Assembly: GCA_947302185.1 (NCBI GenBank)
Contig: CAMYVI010000003.1
Coordinates: 1-33,841, forward strand
Length of the DNA: 33,841 nucleotides
Reading direction: 5' to 3'
Origin: an uncultured Lachnospiraceae bacterium
GTDB lineage: Bacteria; Bacillota_A; Clostridia; Lachnospirales; Lachnospiraceae
A program made the position numbers and the translations under genes. The notes beneath the pieces were generated by a model. It had not been told where the DNA came from, ran no database searches, and saw only the letters and a program-made list of their open reading frames with translations. This document shows positions 4,473-13,985 of this stretch, in pieces (position 1 is the first letter of the stretch; the number at the start of each line of letters is the position of its first letter).

Positions 4473-6029
4473 ATGAGAAAAAGAACATCACGAATAAAGT
4501 GCGCAGCCGGTATGCTTCTCGTTATGGCAATGCTTGCCGGATGTCAGAATTCCGCAGCGACAGGCGTTACGAACAGCGGATCTTCCGCATCTGCAGAAGC
4601 GGATGTATCCGGCTCCGATGCATCCAAGGTGACAGACACCCGAAGCTCGGATGAGACGCCCTCGGAGTCAAAAATCGATCCGGAGACGGATTCCGCTGCA
4701 GCGCTTTCGACGGACAGTTCCGCATCTGAAGCACAGGAATCGGCTGCCACCGATTCAACCGGAGATGAATCCGAAAAGGATCAGCCGGAAGAAAGTCAGG
4801 AAGAAGAGTCTTCCTATTCATTAAAGCAGGTCGTAGTTCTGAGCCGCCACAATATTCGATCCCCTATGTCCGGCAAAGACACGATCGTTGAATCGGCAAC
4901 GCCCAACGAGTGGTTCAAGTGGACTTCTCCGACAAGCCAGCTCTCTCTCAGGGGAGGAGTTCTTGAGACGATTATGGGTCAGTATTTCCGCAAATGGCTC
5001 GAAAATGAAGGACTTATTCCCGAGAATTACCGGCCGGAAAACGGAGAAGTTCGCTTTTATGCAAATGCTAAGCAGCGTACCCAGGCAACAGCCCGCTATT
5101 TCGCTGCAGGTCTGCTTCCTGTAGCAGATGTAGAAATTGAGCGTCAGGCCGAATTTGACTCGATGGACGAGGTTTTCACGCCGAAGATTCATTTCCTTAA
5201 TGAAAAATTCGAAGAGGATGCAATGGCAGAAGTTGCTGAAAAAGGCGGAGATGCAGGCATAAAGGGAGTCGATGCGGATCTTGAGGAATCCTATGCGCTA
5301 CTTACGGAAGTGCTCGACCTTGAGGATTCCGACGCCTATAAGAGCGGTGAACTTACCGGGTTTACAGTCGGTGACTCAGAGATATCGTGGGAAGTCGGTT
5401 CCGAACCGGCCATGACGGGATCTCTTAAGAGCGCGACCTCATTCAGTGATGCCCTGGTATTGCAGTATTATGAGGAGCCGGATGCCCTCAAAGCGGCTTT
5501 CGGGCATGAACTCACCTGGGAAGACTGGCTGAAAATAGCTGAGATCAAGGACGTTTATCAGGATGTACTGTTCTCATCTCCTCTTATAGCTGTAAATGTT
5601 GCACAGCCGCTTCTGGCGGAGATCAAAGACGAATTGACAAGCGATGAACACATCTTCACATTCCTGTGCGGACACGATTCCAATATCGGAAGTGTGTTGC
5701 CGGCTATGGGAGTGAAAGAATACAGCCTGCCGGATACACTCGAGAGAGAAACTCCGATCGGAGGCAAGCTGGTATTTGAAATTTACGATGATGCTGACGG
5801 GCAGGAACTCTGCGAGATCAGTATGGTGTATCAGACTACTGAGCAGATCCGCAGCATGGAACTGCTTTCAATTGAGAATCCGCCTCAGAAGTACGAACTT
5901 GAATTTGAGGGCATTGAAAAGAACGCAGACGGTTACTACGCACTCCGCGATGTTACAGCCCGAATACAGGAGGCGCTTGACATCTACGATGAGTATGCGC
6001 AGGATGAGGCGCTGGCACCTGCAGCCTGA
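4473..6029 (+). CDS. agp: Exported histidine acid phosphatase, glucose-1-phosphatase (Agp)-like lipoprotein
   Basis: A 518-residue branch-2 histidine phosphatase. The N-terminus has a signal peptide ending in the lipobox LAGC, then a roughly 90-residue Ser/Asp/Glu-rich linker, so the enzyme is probably tethered outside the membrane. The catalytic motif is SRHNIRSP (Arg125-His126, phosphohistidine) and the proton-donor motif is GHDSNIGS (His401-Asp402). The variant RHN instead of RHG, and the segments VLETIMGQY, VYQDVLFSSP, TPIGGKLVFE and MVYQTTEQIR, resemble E. coli Agp strongly as I recall it, so glucose-1-phosphate or phytate-like sugar phosphates are likely substrates. The start follows AAAGGAG with 9 bases of spacing. 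It ends at a strong bidirectional terminator. The divergent DeoR regulator may control it. Confidence 0.88.
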   Translation: MRKRTSRIKCAAGMLLVMAMLAGCQNSAATGVTNSGSSASAEADVSGSDASKVTDTRSSDETPSESKIDPETDSAAALSTDSSASEAQESAATDSTGDESEKDQPEESQEEESSYSLKQVVVLSRHNIRSPMSGKDTIVESATPNEWFKWTSPTSQLSLRGGVLETIMGQYFRKWLENEGLIPENYRPENGEVRFYANAKQRTQATARYFAAGLLPVADVEIERQAEFDSMDEVFTPKIHFLNEKFEEDAMAEVAEKGGDAGIKGVDADLEESYALLTEVLDLEDSDAYKSGELTGFTVGDSEISWEVGSEPAMTGSLKSATSFSDALVLQYYEEPDALKAAFGHELTWEDWLKIAEIKDVYQDVLFSSPLIAVNVAQPLLAEIKDELTSDEHIFTFLCGHDSNIGSVLPAMGVKEYSLPDTLERETPIGGKLVFEIYDDADGQELCEISMVYQTTEQIRSMELLSIENPPQKYELEFEGIEKNADGYYALRDVTARIQEALDIYDEYAQDEALAPAA

Positions 6030-6075
6030 CCATGCAGATATTTGAGATTAAGACATGTTGTGGTTCTAAGCACAC

Positions 6076-6116
6076 AAAAAAGCTGTCGCATTCAGAGCGA
6101 ATGCGGCAGCTTTACT
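6076..6116. terminator. Strong bidirectional intrinsic terminator
   Basis: AAAGCTGTCGCATTC (6079-6093) pairs with GAATGCGGCAGCTTT (6099-6113) over 15 positions with a single G-T wobble and a 5-base loop. T-runs flank it on both strands (TTT on plus; six Ts on minus). It ends the Agp-like gene in one direction and the peptide genes of the radical SAM cassette in the other. Confidence 0.85.
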
Positions 6117-6218
6117 CTTGAAATAATTCACATAGAAACGCTCTTTCTTCAGCCATTTATATACGAAATAACGCGCGTTTATGAATCAAGAGTCAGTTTC
6201 TTTTTCAAAAGGTATCAA

Positions 6219-6344
6219 TTATCTATCCGAGATACATATTTCCGTTGTCGTAATATCTTCATCGTATGTGCAGGAAGTAGCTATAATATCTTCTGTATCA
6301 AAACAGATAATATCAAGTTCCAGTTCTGTGTATTGTTCTTTCAT
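6219..6344 (-). CDS. Candidate RiPP precursor peptide 2
   Basis: A 41-residue peptide beginning MKEQYTELELDIICFDTEDI and ending IATSCTYDEDI...EICISDR. It starts at an ATG preceded by GAGGGG with 9 bases of spacing, and ends in TAA. It is paralogous to the peptide encoded just upstream: the shared pattern is MKE-Y-ELEL-I-F-EDII-SC, with the conserved Cys at residue 25 and a second Cys at 37. A conserved acidic leader followed by a short, divergent, Cys/Thr/Asp-rich tail is the pattern of a substrate for a radical SAM/SPASM maturase, and such an enzyme is encoded directly upstream. I infer a leader of about 21 residues and a core of about 20. No exporter or leader peptidase gene is nearby. Confidence 0.72.
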   Translation of the reverse strand: MKEQYTELELDIICFDTEDIIATSCTYDEDITTTEICISDR

Positions 6345-6388
6345 AGATCATATCCCCTCGAAAACAAAAATTACATTTTCAAATAGTA

Positions 6389-6508
6389 TCATCCTTCATC
6401 GCCCCACAGACAAACATCCTGTGTCAATACAGAACAACTGGAAGTAATAATATCCTCTACTTCAAAACGGATGACCTCAAGCTCCAATTCCTTATATGAT
6501 TCTTTCAT
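6389..6508 (-). CDS. Candidate RiPP precursor peptide 1
   Basis: A 39-residue peptide beginning MKESYKELELEVIRFEVEDI and ending in the tail TSSCSVLTQDVCLWGDEG. The ATG follows AAGGAAA with proper spacing and the stop is TGA. Residues 1-25 align without gaps to the second peptide, 45 bases downstream (MKE.Y.ELEL..I.F..EDII..SC), while the tails differ in length and sequence but each keep Cys25 plus one further Cys (33 here). A leader of the type ELEVIxFxxEDVI is, from memory, common in short clostridial peptides beside radical SAM enzymes. The gene has its own promoter 76 bases upstream, so it can be expressed far above the maturase level. The product, linkage type and activity are unknown. 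Confidence 0.75.
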   Translation of the reverse strand: MKESYKELELEVIRFEVEDIITSSCSVLTQDVCLWGDEG

Positions 6509-6583
6509 TATAAATTTCCTTTCGAAACAATAGTTCAATATATTTCAGTCGAGTATTATTTCGTAATCCCCACGAACGAGTTT

Positions 6584-6612
6584 ATTCTAACACGAAATAA
6601 GCACATGAACAA
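6584..6612 (-). promoter_or_regulatory. Promoter for the twin precursor-peptide genes
   Basis: On the minus strand TTGTTC (6607-6612) and TAGAAT (6584-6589) are separated by exactly 17 bases, a good sigma-A type promoter. It lies immediately after the maturase stop codon and would start transcription near 6577, giving about a 70-base leader before the first peptide. Confidence 0.65.
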
Positions 6613-6620
6613 GCCGGTTT

Positions 6621-8078
6621 TTAATATATTGAATATATTAGTTTTCTCAACTTGCTTTCCGTATCAATCTGTCTGAATTGCGCACAGAATTTATTATAAA
6701 CCGGGCATCCGTTTCTGAAGAATGGCGTGCATTCCGGCAGATAGGGACAATTCCTGCACTTTTCATCTGCTTCTAAAAGTGCCCGACTGTCGCTTTCGAG
6801 CCGGACATCCGCATCGGTTATATGCCCGAAAGAGGTATTATCCGGCAGATGCTCGCAGTGATATAGTGTGCCGTCCGGTGTGATCACCACGCTTTTACCT
6901 TCAGAGTCTGCCATGCACATGTTGACTTTTAATTTATCTGCGTCTTTGCGGAAACACGCTGTCGGGAGCCCGCTTAAGGCTGCTTCATTTTCCAAAAATT
7001 TCATTTTTTCGTATACATGCACACAACTTCTGTCAACCTTTTCCTGAAAGAGCATTGCGGTATAGATAGAAAGCTTTCCGGATGTTCCGTACATTTTAAC
7101 GGCATCATCCCAGAGAGTTCGCATACCTTCCAAATTATTCCGGTCATAATTGCAGCGCAGTGTGACTTGGATATTCTGTTTCAGAAGATAGCCGATACCC
7201 TGCAGCATCGTATCGTAATTGTGTTTAGCAGGATTCAAATACTGTTTCCGGCTCTCATAATCCGTTCGCGCGCCGTCAACGGACACCTGCGCGGATTCAA
7301 GATGCCAGTCAAGTGCAGCCTTTTCGGCCAGTTCGGGAGTGAGCAGGCATGCATTTGTAATGATCCGGGATTTGAATTTTACTCCCCTGTCGCTGAGTTT
7401 TCGGCAGATCCGGGAAATAATTTTCTCGCCGAGAAGAGGCTCTCCGCCGAACCAGGTGAGAATAATCTTATCTTTCCGCCGGGTCCGTTCTATGAAATCT
7501 ACCGTTTGGTCCGCCGTGGCTTCATCCATGGTCAGAACGGGCAATCCTTCCTCGTAGCAGTATACACATCTCGCGTTACAGCCGGTCGTAGGCAAAATGG
7601 TATATGTCTTAACACCGGGCTTTTTTTTCTCCATGATCTTCAGGAGGGAAATGACCGTCTTGTACTGCTGATAATCGTCGGTATCCGGCTCCGTTAGCAG
7701 GCAAAGGGTAATCAGGTCGGACAAACCTGCTTCCCGCAGCACACTTCCCTTAATGGGAGCGCTGCCTCTCTGTATAACAGTCCATTCCTCATCGGAAAGA
7801 GAGGCAGTGATGCCTGTCAGGGTATTATGAAGAAAATGCACCCTCTCCTCCGCACACGGAACAGCGTCGGCACCTGCAGCGCTCATAAACGGTGCGGCGT
7901 CGTTTTCTCCGGCACATGGGGAAGTGCTGTTCTCCGAATGGGCACAGACAGAAAACCTGTCTGCTTTTTCGGAGAAGGGAATGGTATAAACGGACAGCCT
8001 GTAAAGGCTGTCCGGATTGATGTTCTTTTTTTTAAGAATGCTGACGACGCGAAAGTCGCCTTCTTTTATAATTTTCAT
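6621..8078 (-). CDS. Radical SAM/SPASM peptide maturase
   Basis: A 485-residue enzyme. The radical SAM cluster motif is CNARCVYC (Cys167, Cys171, Cys174), followed by WFGGEPLLG for SAM binding. The C-terminal SPASM region supplies auxiliary cluster ligands: Cys388 and GTLYHC (Cys408), then Cys441, 444, 450, 458 and 465 in CRNCPYLPEC...GCPVYNKFC. The N-terminal 160 residues contain FLHNTLTGITASLSDEEW, a type of lead-in seen in peptide maturases. The start at 8078 has AGGA 8 bases upstream; a longer open frame to 8222 runs into the preceding gene and has no ribosome site. Such enzymes install thioether or C-C crosslinks in short peptides; the two peptides just downstream are the obvious substrates. 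Confidence 0.88.
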   Translation of the reverse strand: MKIIKEGDFRVVSILKKKNINPDSLYRLSVYTIPFSEKADRFSVCAHSENSTSPCAGENDAAPFMSAAGADAVPCAEERVHFLHNTLTGITASLSDEEWTVIQRGSAPIKGSVLREAGLSDLITLCLLTEPDTDDYQQYKTVISLLKIMEKKKPGVKTYTILPTTGCNARCVYCYEEGLPVLTMDEATADQTVDFIERTRRKDKIILTWFGGEPLLGEKIISRICRKLSDRGVKFKSRIITNACLLTPELAEKAALDWHLESAQVSVDGARTDYESRKQYLNPAKHNYDTMLQGIGYLLKQNIQVTLRCNYDRNNLEGMRTLWDDAVKMYGTSGKLSIYTAMLFQEKVDRSCVHVYEKMKFLENEAALSGLPTACFRKDADKLKVNMCMADSEGKSVVITPDGTLYHCEHLPDNTSFGHITDADVRLESDSRALLEADEKCRNCPYLPECTPFFRNGCPVYNKFCAQFRQIDTESKLRKLIYSIY

Positions 8079-8130
8079 AAACAAAATCCTCTTGACGGAA
8101 AATCGTCTTGACAGCTCGTTATCCGTTTTA

Positions 8131-8748
8131 TTACAACGGAAGTTCGGGCAGAACGATTTCTCCGTCTTCGTTGACCCAGGCATCATCTTCCGGTTGATTC
8201 TGCTCTGTTTGCTGCGGAGCATCTTCTGACGGTTTATCCGGATTCTGCTGCGTTTCCTGTGAAGAACTCCCGGACGGATTCTTCGGGTTCTGATTTGTAC
8301 CTTCTGATGATTGTTCGGCCGGAGTATCCCCGGATGGAATAGTGATTTCCGGCGTCTCTAGATCAGAACGGTTATCATCGTCAATTATTTCAATATCATC
8401 GTTCCCGCCATCGGAAGGATCGGCAACGTCATCTGACGGAGATGTCGTTTCGCTGCCGTTTTTGGCATTTCCTGTATTGTCTGATTTGGAATCAGGTTTG
8501 TCTGTAGTCTTTTTCTTTGCTTTACCTGTCGGTTTTGGAGTTGCCGTCGCTTTTGCATCTCCCTTTTTCTTTGCTGCGTCGGTCGGACTGACTTTCGGTG
8601 TCGCACTGGGTGTCCCTGTTGCCGCAGGTGAAATGCTTGTTGCGAGAGAAGTGTCTGACGGAGTCTGATTCCCTCCGGCGGAGGGACCGCAGCCTGCTGC
8701 GCAAAAGAGCCAGATACATAATGTAAACAGTATGATAGATATTCTCAT
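8131..8748 (-). CDS. Pro/Ser/Thr-rich lipoprotein, first gene of the radical SAM cassette
   Basis: A 205-residue exported protein. Its signal sequence ends in FCAAGC, a lipobox, so the Cys at residue 20 should be lipidated. The rest is almost entirely low-complexity, rich in Pro, Ser, Thr, Lys and Asp, for example PSATPKVSPTDAAKKKG, and later PSGSSSQETQQNPDKPSE, ending in WVNEDGEIVLPELPL. No enzymatic domain is visible. The start at 8748 has AGGAG upstream; a 16-codon longer frame is possible but lacks a site. It lies 52 bases upstream of the maturase on the same strand and probably shares its message. It might be a surface tether or be unrelated to peptide maturation; I do not recognise a family. 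Confidence 0.75.
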   Translation of the reverse strand: MRISIILFTLCIWLFCAAGCGPSAGGNQTPSDTSLATSISPAATGTPSATPKVSPTDAAKKKGDAKATATPKPTGKAKKKTTDKPDSKSDNTGNAKNGSETTSPSDDVADPSDGGNDDIEIIDDDNRSDLETPEITIPSGDTPAEQSSEGTNQNPKNPSGSSSQETQQNPDKPSEDAPQQTEQNQPEDDAWVNEDGEIVLPELPL

Positions 8749-8807
8749 AATATTTTGATCTCCTTCATGAAAAACTTTGACATTTTCGAGATTCATTATA
8801 ACATCGT

Positions 8808-8816
8808 ATTATAGCA
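8808..8816 (-). promoter_or_regulatory. Extended -10 promoter for the lipoprotein/maturase operon
   Basis: The minus strand reads TGCTATAAT, a perfect -10 with the TGn extension; a second TATAAT lies at 8795-8800. The -35 is weak. It sits about 60 bases upstream of the lipoprotein start at 8748. Confidence 0.55.
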
Positions 8817-8990
8817 TATGCTTCACAAAAACACACAGTAATTAATCTTTGAAGCAGAACTGTAGTGATTTCAGGTACAGGGCACAAGACTGAATCAGAG
8901 ACCGGAGACTTCGGCTGTCCGCATACGTGCAATAAGGAATCATTATGAACTTCGCGCGGTGCTGCAAAAAAGGCTAAAAGGAAAAAGTAT

Positions 8991-9518
8991 ATGAAAAAGG
9001 ATTATCAGCACATCGTTCACAACATTCCGCCTGTATATGATGAGGACTCACGTGTCCTCATTCTCGGCTCCTTTCCCTCGCCGATGTCCCGCGAAGCCCG
9101 GTTCTTCTACGGGCATCCGCAGAACAGATTCTGGAAGGTGATGGCGAGATTGTATGACCGCCCGGACTTTACCGGTATTGAGGAAAAAAAGCGGTTCATC
9201 ACAGAGAAACATATAGCAATGTGGGATTCAATTTACGAATGTGACATACGCGGCGCCTCAGATGCGAGTATCAAAAATGCAGTTCCCACAGATCTCGAAA
9301 AAATTATCCGGTGCGGGAATATTGTGCAGATCTTTACGAACGGAAAAGTATCCGGCCGTGTCTTTGACAAATATCAGGCCAAAAAGCTCGGCCGTACCAG
9401 TATTACGTTACCGTCCACATCACCTGCAAATGCAGCCTGGTCTCTGGAGCGGCTTCTTGAGGAGTGGAAAATCGTGAAGGAGACTCTGGAGGAACAGATA
9501 TATCTCAGTGCGAGATGA
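8991..9518 (+). CDS. Hypoxanthine (deoxyinosine)-DNA glycosylase, uracil-DNA glycosylase superfamily
   Basis: A 175-residue cytoplasmic DNA repair enzyme that removes deaminated bases. The N-terminal active-site motif is LGSFPSPMSREARFFYGHPQ, with NRFW following, and the C-terminal substrate motif is LPSTSPANAAW; both match family 6 (HDG) of the superfamily. Length is normal for the family. The start has AAAAGGAAAAAG upstream. The last six codons and the stop (9501-9518) fall inside a repeated sequence also present at 19652, so the C-terminus YLSAR may derive from repeat insertion and replace the original end. It appears to be monocistronic. Confidence 0.9.
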   Translation: MKKDYQHIVHNIPPVYDEDSRVLILGSFPSPMSREARFFYGHPQNRFWKVMARLYDRPDFTGIEEKKRFITEKHIAMWDSIYECDIRGASDASIKNAVPTDLEKIIRCGNIVQIFTNGKVSGRVFDKYQAKKLGRTSITLPSTSPANAAWSLERLLEEWKIVKETLEEQIYLSAR

Positions 9519-10301: not shown

Positions 10302-13300
10302 ATGAAACGAGCTTTAGTACTGCTTCTGATTACTTCTATGCTGAGTACCGGTACAGTGTATGCGGCCGCTGAGCCGGACGTATGTGCCGACGTGCCCGTA
10401 TATTCAGAGGAAAGCAGCCAAAGTGAAAGCGGTGACTATTCCGATTACGGCGAATCTGAAGATTATTCCTCACAAGAGGAGTATTCTGATTATGATTCAG
10501 GTGATACCGGAATGAGCGGGGAGTCTGACGGCGAAGCATCATCGGCAGATGAAAATGACGTGTATTCTGACAGTGATTCTGCCGGGTACAGTGAAAGCAC
10601 GGCGGACAGCGGCGATAGCGCTGACGTGTCATCTTCTGCCGATGCCGTGTCAGGTGAGGAAAAAGCCGGTGCGGCAGATAGCGCTGCCCCTGCGTCCGTT
10701 TCGGACGGCTCTGAGGTTGACGCTGTATCCGAGTCGAAAGAAGTTAAGGCTGAAGAGGCAAATCCTTCGGAGGAGGGTAAAACCGAAGGACGGTCAGAAG
10801 AGAAAGATACCGAAAGTGAAGAAATACCCGAATCAAGCGATTCTGCCAGAGGAGGAATGTCCGATTCGAAGGATCTTAAAGGTGACGCCGGATATGATAG
10901 CGATGACTCTTATATATCGTCCGGGAACGAACCGGAAGAAATCATCGGAGATGTAAACGGTTCTGCGGATGCTCAAAGCAGGAGTGATGCCGATTCCGCT
11001 GCAGCAGCACCGCTGCTTAAACAAAGCGGGAATACGGATGAGAACTCTAAAAGGACCCGTATTGCAATAATGTCAGACATACACTATGTTACGGACCGGC
11101 TTATTAGCGAACTGGGACGGGATGATCTGAAAAACGCGGCTTTGACAGAGACCCGCCTGATGGAAGAGATAGACGCCATACTGACCGCTGCGCTGAAAGG
11201 CGCGTCAAAGGCAGAGCCGGACGCTTTACTGATCTGCGGTGATCTTGTGAGCAACGGAGAACTGCTCGGGGCAAAGGCACTCGCTGCGAAACTCAAAGCG
11301 GCGAAGGAAAAGGACGGCTTTGAAAACACAGGATTCTATGTCGTAAACGGCAACCATGATATCAACAATTCATACGCTGCCGATTTTACAGGCGAAAAGG
11401 CGACAGGCGCAGACCGTGTACAGCCTTCTGACTTTAAGGAAATATTTTCCGGTCTGGGATACGGAGATGACGATCACTGGGCGGGCGGCAGCCACAGCAT
11501 TTACGTACCTACGAGTGATGATCCGTCTGATACAAAGAACCATGGCGGCCTGTCCTATGCGGCCGACATTGCCGACGGCATAACGCTGATCGTATTAGAT
11601 ACCGGAATTTACCGCACCGATGAAAGCGGGCAGAGCATGTATAACGATGCTCAGAAGACTGCGGGGTATGTGTCTGATGATCTGCTCGCATGGGCAGCGG
11701 CACAGGCAAAGGAAGCCAAAGCCAAAGGCAATCTGGTCCTTGCTATGTCGCATCACGGTCTTTTGCCTCACTACGATGTAGATCTGGAGGATAAAGGTGC
11801 GTGGTATATGAATTCATTCAGAGTTCCGAACTGGGAAAATGTAGCCGAGACTTTGGCGGATGCCGGCGTAACCGCGGTGCTTACCGGCCATACCCACGCC
11901 AATGACATTGCCTCATACGTATCCAAAAACAATAATGTCCTTTATGACGTAGAGACTGCAGCCCTCTGTGCATATCCGTGCATTTGGCGTGCCTTTGATA
12001 TCGTGACCAGCGGCGAGGGTGAGGAAAAGACGTATACCATTTCTATTGACACTACATATATCAATGAGGACCTGGAAGCGGACACCAGCAGCTGGAGCTT
12101 CACAATCGGTGACAAGACCAAGACCTTTGACGGGGACTACAACAGCAACCTGCAGGAGTATTCATATGAAAAGACCGGTATTCACGAGGGAATGCTCGAT
12201 TCCACAGCGATGTATATGGTAAAGAATACTTTATCGGACATCTTGAACCATGAGGGCGGTCTTGCCGGTTATATTAAAGAGCAGTTAAACGTTCCCGAGA
12301 GTATGAGTCTCGGTGACTATGCAGCAGGTGCTCTGCGCAAAATGATCAGTGATTTTCCGGGCTTTACCAAGGAGCTCTCTACCGCACTATTTAAGGGTTC
12401 AGTGGGTATTGAAAATGCTACACAGGAAGGCGATGAGAATCCGACATTGAATATTACTGCCGAGCTGAACGGAGTAACAGAGCACGGCAAGGCTATTCTT
12501 GATATGAGTTATATTCCGACAGCGGTAGATGAGATGACTGCAAAGGCAGAGCAGAAGCTGCTCGAGGGAGAATGGCTGAAAAATCCTTATGCATCGAACC
12601 CGCTGCTCGACGATATTCGGAATCTGATCAAGAACGGTGTTATTCCCGCTTTATCGCAGCCGCTCGAGGAGGATGATCCGGAAAGCTCTGCAGTGAAAAT
12701 GGTAAATGACGCATGGCAGACATTCTCTCTGGGCGATGAAGGTCTGGCTGACGATGCACAGAAAGCAAAATGGGAACATGAACGCGAACTGCTTGGCGGT
12801 GAAGTACTTGCCGGTAAACTGACAGAGGGACTTTGGAAGGAAGTGCTGAAGCTGAATACATCAGCTTATCCGATTTTGAATGAACTTCTTACCCAGCGTA
12901 TTGTAGGGGAGGAAAAAACAGGAATCTTATCGGTCGCAACGGAGAATCCGACTGATTATCTGCTGCCGGCTATAACGAACCTGCTCGGAATCAATAAATT
13001 GGATACATTTTCATCCATTATCCGGACGGCTTCATCGCTGGATATGCTTGGTATGGGGAACCTGATTCCCGCAAGCGCAGTCAAACCGCTCACAGATAAG
13101 GTTGTCGGCCTTCACGAAGTTATGACTACGGATAATAATATTAAGCATGACAACACCTGGGAATTCCGGATGGTGAGGTTTGACGCCAACGGCGGCAGTG
13201 TCGGCAGGACACATGCTTTGACCGTCGAGGATCATAAGCTGGTCAGCCTTCCGACACCTGATGAGAGAGAGGATTATACTTTTGACGGCTGGTTCACGTC

Positions 13301-13985
13301 GGAAACCGGTGGAAGGCAGGTAACGGCCGATGATGATATGACGGGTATAAGCACGTTATATGCACATTGGACATATACCGGAGAAGAGAGAGAGGATCCG
13401 AAGCCTGCAGATGATGACGATGAGAAACCGAAACCCGACGATGAGAAACCGAAACCCGACGATCGGAAAGAAGATGATGGCAGCAGGGAGACACCGGAGG
13501 AAAGAAAGGATGAGAACATCGTCCCGGTAAAGCCCTCTGAGAATGAGAAGACTGCCGCACCGAGTGACAAATCTGACAATCGGAATACAGCAGGAGAGAA
13601 CAGATCAGCCCGGGATCTTCACAGTTACTTTGTTTCCCGCAAGGCGCTGCATGACAAAATATTAAAAGTGGAATACATCGATGTAGAACATGAGAAGTTC
13701 TGTGCCGCCATTGTCTCAGCGCTTAAAAACGGTGAGACGGTCTTCAATATGGGTAAATGGCTGAGTCTGAATGCTGAGGCCGTTGCTGCCATAGAAGACA
13801 GCAAGACAGATGTGACACTCGAATATGTCGGTCAGGGTATCGGATTCCGTGTGGTCATTCCGGCAGGATCAAAGATATCCCGTTTTGCTGACGAGCAAGG
13901 CTCCGTGTGTGTTGTCTGCCTGGCCGAGTCTTACGGTTATGAGACTATTGGAGAGGAAGACATTCTTCGCCGGCCGCTGGGATAA
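10302..13985 (+). CDS. Large secreted calcineurin-like metallophosphoesterase with InlB-type repeat
   Basis: A 1227-residue exported protein. A signal peptide (about residues 1-22, ending VYAAA) is followed by about 225 residues extremely rich in Ser, Asp, Glu and Ala. The metallophosphoesterase domain starts near residue 254: DIH (259-261), GDLVSNGE (Asp314), GNHD (350-353), SHHG (His484/485) and LTGHTHAND (His530/532), all the di-metal ligands expected. Residues about 560-955 are an uncharacterised alpha-rich region. Near residue 965 an InlB B-repeat/Listeria-Bacteroides repeat (VRFDANGGSV...FDGWFTSETGG...LYAHW) begins. A charged DDEKPKPDDEKPKPDD spacer and a 130-residue C-terminal domain follow; no LPXTG anchor is seen. 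It may hydrolyse extracellular phosphate esters. AGGAGG-type site at the start supports 10302. Confidence 0.88.
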   Translation: MKRALVLLLITSMLSTGTVYAAAEPDVCADVPVYSEESSQSESGDYSDYGESEDYSSQEEYSDYDSGDTGMSGESDGEASSADENDVYSDSDSAGYSESTADSGDSADVSSSADAVSGEEKAGAADSAAPASVSDGSEVDAVSESKEVKAEEANPSEEGKTEGRSEEKDTESEEIPESSDSARGGMSDSKDLKGDAGYDSDDSYISSGNEPEEIIGDVNGSADAQSRSDADSAAAAPLLKQSGNTDENSKRTRIAIMSDIHYVTDRLISELGRDDLKNAALTETRLMEEIDAILTAALKGASKAEPDALLICGDLVSNGELLGAKALAAKLKAAKEKDGFENTGFYVVNGNHDINNSYAADFTGEKATGADRVQPSDFKEIFSGLGYGDDDHWAGGSHSIYVPTSDDPSDTKNHGGLSYAADIADGITLIVLDTGIYRTDESGQSMYNDAQKTAGYVSDDLLAWAAAQAKEAKAKGNLVLAMSHHGLLPHYDVDLEDKGAWYMNSFRVPNWENVAETLADAGVTAVLTGHTHANDIASYVSKNNNVLYDVETAALCAYPCIWRAFDIVTSGEGEEKTYTISIDTTYINEDLEADTSSWSFTIGDKTKTFDGDYNSNLQEYSYEKTGIHEGMLDSTAMYMVKNTLSDILNHEGGLAGYIKEQLNVPESMSLGDYAAGALRKMISDFPGFTKELSTALFKGSVGIENATQEGDENPTLNITAELNGVTEHGKAILDMSYIPTAVDEMTAKAEQKLLEGEWLKNPYASNPLLDDIRNLIKNGVIPALSQPLEEDDPESSAVKMVNDAWQTFSLGDEGLADDAQKAKWEHERELLGGEVLAGKLTEGLWKEVLKLNTSAYPILNELLTQRIVGEEKTGILSVATENPTDYLLPAITNLLGINKLDTFSSIIRTASSLDMLGMGNLIPASAVKPLTDKVVGLHEVMTTDNNIKHDNTWEFRMVRFDANGGSVGRTHALTVEDHKLVSLPTPDEREDYTFDGWFTSETGGRQVTADDDMTGISTLYAHWTYTGEEREDPKPADDDDEKPKPDDEKPKPDDRKEDDGSRETPEERKDENIVPVKPSENEKTAAPSDKSDNRNTAGENRSARDLHSYFVSRKALHDKILKVEYIDVEHEKFCAAIVSALKNGETVFNMGKWLSLNAEAVAAIEDSKTDVTLEYVGQGIGFRVVIPAGSKISRFADEQGSVCVVCLAESYGYETIGEEDILRRPLG

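Follow-up and report, generated by a model that had tools for sequence, protein, structure and literature searches.

Among the ribosomally synthesized and post-translationally modified peptides (RiPPs) described so far, the ranthipeptide maturase PapB forms Cys-Asp links in the CX3D motifs of PapA and accepts CX0D to CX6D in vitro (PMC9413430). SCIFF peptides contain six Cys within about 45 residues, and they are reported to carry Cys-Thr links (PMC8326336). Here, we report a computational analysis of 33,841 nucleotides of DNA from an uncultured Lachnospiraceae bacterium (contig CAMYVI010000003.1, positions 1 to 33,841; hereafter, the window), in which a gene for a radical S-adenosylmethionine (SAM)/SPASM enzyme is followed on the minus strand by the genes for two short peptides, P2 and P1. 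The interpretation of these genes as RiPP precursors with a radical SAM maturase is well supported, and P1 and P2 are very likely the substrates of the window enzyme. For the chemistry, we lean toward a thioether between Cys and the side chain of an acidic residue, a prediction that draws on a recurring core motif and on analogy with known maturases. Production of a small modified peptide by this cassette is the best overall explanation of the data and a reasonably probable one. The features that bear on this interpretation are the following.

6621..8078, minus strand: radical SAM/SPASM peptide maturase, 485 amino acids (aa) (PF04055, 5.5e-14; PF13186, 2.9e-4, at its cut-off)
7704..8015, minus strand: N-terminal recognition-domain-like part of the enzyme, approximately residues 22-125 (strands then helices in the AlphaFold2 (AF2) model)
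7557..7580, minus strand: CX3CX2C radical SAM cluster motif (C167, C171, C174), invariant in 56 aligned sequences
6684..6917, minus strand: SPASM region with seven Cys (C388, C408, C441, C444, C450, C458, C465), invariant in 56 sequences (PF13186)
6389..6508, minus strand: precursor peptide P2, 39 aa, core Cys 25 and 33, with C33-x3-D37 (leave-window-out profile E 9.1e-13)
6437..6508, minus strand: P2 leader, residues 1-24, ending TSS (leader conservation in alignments)
6219..6344, minus strand: precursor peptide P1, 41 aa, Cys 14, 25 and 37, of which 25 and 37 lie in the core (leave-window-out profile E 7.1e-11)
6273..6344, minus strand: P1 leader, residues 1-24, ending ATS (leader conservation in alignments)
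6261..6272, minus strand: C25-T-Y-D28 in P1, predicted crosslink site (C-x2-[DE] enrichment)
6225..6236, minus strand: C37-I-S-D40 in P1, predicted crosslink site (C-x2-[DE] enrichment)

The two peptides had been noticed in an initial annotation made from the sequence alone, where P2 and P1 were called peptides 1 and 2, respectively; they are present on the same strand, at 6508-6389 and 6344-6219, with the lengths and Cys positions given there. Pfam and NCBIfam models did not fire on either peptide. Short open reading frames (ORFs) are frequent in this region (52 ORFs of 25 aa or more overlap positions 5500-9500), which favors the trivial explanation that P1 and P2 are chance ORFs. This explanation is already refuted, and we give it practically no credence: when 973 stop-to-stop window frames of at least 20 aa were scored with a profile built from 13 seeds of other genomes, without the window peptides, P2 and P1 ranked at the top, with the E-values listed above, against 2.6 for the next frame. 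The peptides are therefore not chance.

As the initial annotation had described, the leaders align without gaps and the tails diverge, with 15 of the 24 leader residues but only 1 of 15 tail residues identical between P1 and P2. Leader positions Y5, D19 and S24 are invariant or nearly so across three family alignments. A metagenome peptide, P0122, has a leader like that of P2 (22/24) and a core like that of P1 (14/16), with both C-x2-D motifs kept; a second peptide of the protein collection, P0167, combines a leader identical to that of P2 (24/24) with a diverged P2-type core (9/15). Leader and core thus act like separate modules, and the mixed composition of P0122 suggests that they may be shuffled.

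The pairing of such peptides with the enzyme recurs in related genomes. The scan yielded 58 loci with related enzymes, mostly labelled Clostridia, Clostridiales, Lachnospiraceae or Ruminococcus and in a few cases otherwise; many come from ruminants, and from its relatives we judge the source bacterium to be a gut or rumen dweller. The peptide profile gave 62 matches (E<=0.05) in 48 of these loci, and 55 of the matches, in 44 loci, lie on the enzyme strand within 1.5 kb, a zone that makes up 13.4 % of the strand-bases searched. A leader, a variable core and an adjacent maturase thus recur together, in agreement with the RiPP pattern originally proposed; homologous maturases consistently lacking such peptides, the outcome that had been named as speaking against the proposal, were not what we found. 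Among the ten loci without a peptide match, the enzyme match begins less than 250 bases from the locus start in L004, L022 and L038, and L006 ends soon after the enzyme; L054, L056, L057 and L058 encode distant enzymes (23-28 % identity). A looser pattern, applied to these ten loci and to L047 and L055, revealed no convincing peptide. L011 and L046 each contain two enzymes. In a further locus, L166, two paralogous radical SAM enzymes (6526-7830 and 11996-13324) lie about 4 kb apart near one peptide.

The enzyme matches 790 proteins at E<=1e-3 among 7994 candidates scored. The initial annotation had called it a full radical SAM/SPASM enzyme, and these assignments hold: PF13186 lies just at its cut-off, and the radical SAM core and SPASM ligands of ranthipeptide maturases are represented by the invariant CX3CX2C motif and the seven invariant Cys. 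The AF2 model (predicted local distance difference test score 88) matches Protein Data Bank entry 5wgg over nearly its full length, with the alignment starting at residue 29, and aligns with 8vpo from residue 22; the topology of its N-terminal part is compatible with a leader-recognition domain, but most structural matches span residues 151-476 only. We take 5wgg and 5why to be CteB, the thermocellin/SCIFF (ranthipeptide) maturase. The match lists also include anSME, SkfB, SuiB, EpeE, viperin and MoaA, and for this reason the fold alone cannot fix the chemistry. Residues 44-75 (window 7854-7949) form a low-confidence insert in the N-terminal part that contains Ser, Ala and Cys, and at 485 aa the enzyme is longer than most homologues listed (approximately 440-460 aa).

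The chemistry is addressed more directly by the cores. In P1, an Asp lies three residues after each core Cys (25 and 37). CX3D, our first idea of the family spacing, was not borne out: the counts gave CX2D instead. In a first set of 56 cores (64 before similar ones were removed; one member, L055, has a wrong start), C-x2-D occurs 37 times against 14.0 expected (0 of 2000 shuffles) and C-x2-E 20 times against 8.6 (2 of 2000). The second set consists of 79 cores, 69 of them with Cys, drawn from the 120 proteins listed of 1341 after exclusion of 7 already in the first set and 34 too similar to it or to each other. Here, Asp or Glu occupies position +3 after 80 of 143 Cys, against 37.3 expected with Cys held fixed (0 of 5000 shuffles), and Asp at +3 is found 66 times against 19.3 expected. 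Because both sets were chosen by profiles that include core columns, we also used a leader-only profile; among the resulting 48 non-redundant cores beside the enzyme, the window included, an acidic residue at +3 follows 47 of 110 Cys, against 24.7 expected (0 of 5000 shuffles).

Core cysteines, moreover, accompany the enzyme across genomes. They occur in 45 of the 48 cores beside the enzyme. In two family surveys, of 197 and 299 genomes, peptides were detected at E<=1e-4 in 14 and 18 genomes, respectively; among the 58 distinct readable survey peptides (seven rows of the second survey had no locus of their own), a core Cys is present in 7 of the 9 from the three genomes that also have the enzyme (G005, G008 and G101) versus none of the 49 from the other 29 genomes. 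The p-value of 9e-7 for this association was computed with 1/49, that one being a misplaced leader end.

On this basis, the following sequence of events may be envisaged. The shared 24-residue leader would be bound by the N-terminal recognition domain of the enzyme, as its fold and the conservation of the leader suggest. Hydrogen abstraction by the radical SAM core at a side-chain carbon of Asp (or Glu) would then be followed by formation of a thioether at that carbon by the Cys three residues earlier, activated by a SPASM iron-sulfur cluster, a step modelled on the motif and on the chemistry of PapB and CteB. P1 would gain two rings, C25-D28 and C37-D40, and P2 a ring via C33-x3-D37 or another acceptor. 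Finally, cleavage close to the conserved Ser 24 would remove the leader, and the product would be exported; in some relatives, processing and export may involve a signal-peptidase-like protease, a PqqD protein, an HPr-kinase-like protein and an ABC transporter. C-x2-D constitutes a concrete crosslink prediction for a precursor family that is matched by no Pfam or NCBIfam model.

Genes of these kinds recur at the enzyme loci. Across the 58 loci and the window, we found an HPr-kinase-like protein in 18 loci, an NTP_transf_5 nucleotidyltransferase and an S24/S26 signal-peptidase-like protease in 13 each, an ABC transporter in 14 (one of these being the window, with a generic match) and PqqD in five. 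The PqqD and NTP_transf_5 labels are above the Pfam cut-offs, and those of the protease and the HPr-kinase-like protein come from sub-cut-off matches. None of the five adjoins the window cassette.

A number of observations weigh against a Cys-to-acid thioether made by this enzyme on these peptides. Although enriched, the acidic residue at +3 is missing after 63 of the 110 Cys in the leader-only set, and kinship among cores was handled in the enrichment tests solely by dropping similar ones. P2 and P0167 lack C-x2-D, both having C33-x3-D37 instead. Free shuffles of the second set also show an excess of Thr at +1 (29 versus 11.8 expected), Ser at +2 (16 versus 5.4) and Pro at +1 after Cys. Two of the five peptides of G008 are free of Cys, including the one nearest to the enzyme in L010 (TTSDPERQGNVD), as are 9 of the 14 peptides distant from the enzyme in enzyme-bearing genomes, the other five having a core Cys. 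L013 and L046, with usable flanks, are genuine misses in which the enzyme occurs without a peptide, and three surveyed genomes (G179, G203 and G316) have the enzyme and no peptide at E<=1e-4. Close relatives of the enzyme are missing from 29 of the 32 peptide-bearing survey genomes; leader and maturase are therefore no obligate pair, and since most occurrences of the leader family are in the absence of the enzyme, the leader alone is no proof of a substrate relationship. Relatives of the enzyme were found in 9 of the 197 genomes of the first survey at E<=1e-20 (four of these at E<=1e-50) and in 2 of the 299 of the second at E<=1e-40, where weaker ones are possible below that threshold.

Part of this evidence would fit a different radical reaction on the same peptides, namely an alpha-carbon thioether of the sactipeptide kind, a thermocellin-like Cys-Thr thioether, epimerization or carbon-carbon closure. 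The breadth of the fold class, with anSME, SkfB, SuiB and EpeE among the matches, is compatible with any of these, as are the Thr/Ser-rich cores with their excess of Thr and Ser close to Cys and the missing C-x2-D of P2; SCIFF enzymes use Thr (PMC8326336). Nevertheless, the enrichment shared by all three sets is that of Asp or Glu at +3, Thr, Pro and Ser beside Cys fit a recurring C-[TP]-x-D motif, and the link between Cys and the enzyme renders Cys-free chemistry unlikely, so that we regard another radical reaction as a possibility of distinctly lower probability than the Cys-to-acid thioether. It is improbable that the leader instead serves a general export or phosphorylation pathway, involving PqqD, the HPr-kinase-like protein, the signal-peptidase-like protease and the transporter, and that the target of the enzyme is something else. 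The leader does occur in 29 of the surveyed genomes that lack a close relative of the enzyme, and the accessory genes were found with it at the loci inspected, but core cysteines track the enzyme, and the window enzyme adjoins two peptides without those accessory genes. The same genes invite comparison with lasso peptides: HPr kinase, PqqD and nucleotidyltransferase genes are present in ruminal lasso clusters (PMC7533575), and many leaders have Thr-Thr-Ser or Val-Thr-Ser as their last residues, which places a Thr near the leader cut site. However, the PF13471 leader protease was above its cut-off in none of the 32 peptide-bearing genomes (four weak matches lie below it; the lasso cyclase was not searched for, and the window's own genome is not among the 32), and the window cores have Cys as their first residue and are accompanied by a radical SAM enzyme. 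We rejected a lasso identity on the outcome of the PF13471 test and consider it exceedingly improbable.

Returning to the cassette that would produce the Cys-to-acid thioether, it runs on the minus strand from 8748 to 6087, in the order lipoprotein gene, radical SAM/SPASM enzyme, P2, P1 and terminator-like hairpin, with gaps of 112 nt between the enzyme and P2 and 44 nt between P2 and P1. This order and spacing point to one shared transcript for the four genes. The enzyme starts at the ATG at 8078, preceded by GAGGAT; the longest ORF (533 aa) extends farther upstream. The remaining elements are listed below; good ribosome sites and a common terminator had already been recognized in the initial annotation, and its right edge, 8748, coincides with the start of a lipoprotein gene that it did not name.

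6515..6522, minus strand: P2 ribosome-binding site AAAGGAAA, purine-rich (read from the sequence)
6354..6359, minus strand: P1 ribosome-binding site GAGGGG, purine-rich (read from the sequence)
6087..6105, minus strand: terminator-like hairpin, then a T run, 3' of P1
8131..8748, minus strand: lipoprotein gene, 205 aa, with a signal containing LFCAAGC and a Ser/Thr/Pro/Asp-rich remainder; it opens the apparent operon

The lipoprotein gave no convincing family match in Pfam and NCBIfam scans, and its gene order suggests a possible connection with the peptides; a lipoprotein as a recurring partner was unsupported (among ORFs of 90-350 aa, a lipobox is present in 4 of 62 close to peptides versus 10 of 410 elsewhere, p 0.098). 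To the left of the cassette, the plus strand encodes a lipoprotein-like histidine-type phosphatase (4473-6029; phytase or glucose-1-phosphatase-like), with PF00328 above its cut-off and PRK10173 at 9.5e-105 but under its cut-off; to the right, a plus-strand gene begins at 8991. Farther on, 10302-13982 encodes a protein of 1227 aa that starts with a signal-like sequence and contains a metallophosphatase domain plus a Listeria-Bacteroides repeat, behind which there is no leader peptide match. No RNA family scored above its gathering score in 5900-9000, and enzyme relatives were absent from the viral contigs searched and, at 1e-30, from plasmids and phages.

Beyond the enzyme loci, the leader family is associated with large proteins. 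Of 73 distinct peptides, 44 are preceded by an ORF of 400 aa or more that is on the same strand and ends within 200 nt, versus 35 of 197 control genes, and in 25 of the 44 the distance is 11-39 nt; 16 of the 73 have no such large ORF or lie at a contig edge. Scanning of 45 upstream proteins identified Flg_new in 10, Flg_new_2 in 10, BspA-type LRR in 5, Ig-like domains in 2 and cohesin in 2; the set is not pure, because it includes one DNA ligase and one VanZ-like protein, and the large upstream proteins have no Pfam or NCBIfam family in common. By a simple rule, signal peptides are present in 9 of 17 complete upstream proteins versus 16 of 40 controls, and the label "surface type" accordingly rests on domain content and reading. 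A profile of an unnamed C-terminal domain of about 310 aa (for example, L001:3901-4893, L010:10968-11918 and L097:521-1468), found both where the radical SAM enzyme is encoded in the genome and where it is not, matched 48 of 2136 segments, overlapping loci being counted repeatedly, and 43 of the 48 end at most 7 residues from the stop; the best sequence match to a solved structure, at E 0.83, was not convincing. Peptide and domain co-occur in both surveys: 11 genomes of the first have both (peptide 14, domain 16; p 4.5e-12), as do 9 of the second (peptide 18, domain 13; p 6.7e-10). The link is not strict, with a peptide within 500 nt behind the domain in 13 of the 30 domain loci considered (from 37 domain rows). 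The domain is absent from the window (best E 0.2), so that for the window this link is context only. L166 also holds a 2055-aa protein with the C-terminal domain near its peptide. In Ruminococcus sp. FC2018 (L010), a protein with this domain, several peptides and the enzyme lie on one contig. At L160-L165, L168 and L169, which have no radical SAM enzyme, there is often a large protein with a Cys-free leader peptide and some accessory genes (HPr-kinase-like, S24/S26 protease, ABC transporter, NTP_transf_5); by eye, no ring-forming enzyme was recognized there.

It is conceivable, though rather unlikely, that P1 and P2 represent a branch of a so far undescribed system of gut Clostridia in which peptides with a 24-residue leader and a variable tail are encoded immediately after large, often surface-type proteins that end in the domain of about 310 aa. 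Either plain or, with the radical SAM enzyme, Cys-Asp stapled, the peptides would be brought to this domain and held there by binding or attachment, the window being a stand-alone, maturase-carrying copy. If so, surface proteins would be decorated by the bacteria with small peptides made to order. The tie between RiPP-like leaders and genes of large proteins with a common C-terminal domain hints at a possible role for such peptides besides that of free antibiotics.

In the titles and abstract openings of open-licence PubMed Central papers, we found none on this leader or cassette and none with both CX2D and radical SAM. Compared with ruminal lasso clusters, relatives of the window system share HPr-kinase-like, PqqD, nucleotidyltransferase and ABC genes, whereas the leader is a different one and the window has a radical SAM enzyme. 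The window enzyme lies outside TIGR04463, the family of the TigE structure 8vpo, because it reaches 122.1 bits against a cut-off of 525. The initial annotation had reasonably set the peptides apart from sactipeptides of the subtilosin type, consistent with 40.6 of 625 bits for the sactipeptide maturase StsB and with the recurring Cys-x2-Asp/Glu core motif. SCIFF/thermocellin differs in that P2 and P1 have 2 and 3 Cys, and the enzyme scores 40.2 bits against the TIGR03974 cut-off of 425. The suggestion that the crosslink type could be new stands in part: the motif and the CteB-like fold indicate known ranthipeptide chemistry, in which Cys is linked to an Asp, Glu or Thr side-chain carbon, although at a different spacing. 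The ranthipeptide pathway is probably the known system most alike in its working. In common with PapA/PapB, the window system combines a radical SAM maturase and a leader peptide with Cys followed at short spacing by Asp or Glu; unlike it, the enzyme scores 80.9 bits against the cut-off of 340 for the PapB family NF047865, and the family spacing is mainly C-x2-D/E rather than the CX3D of PapA.

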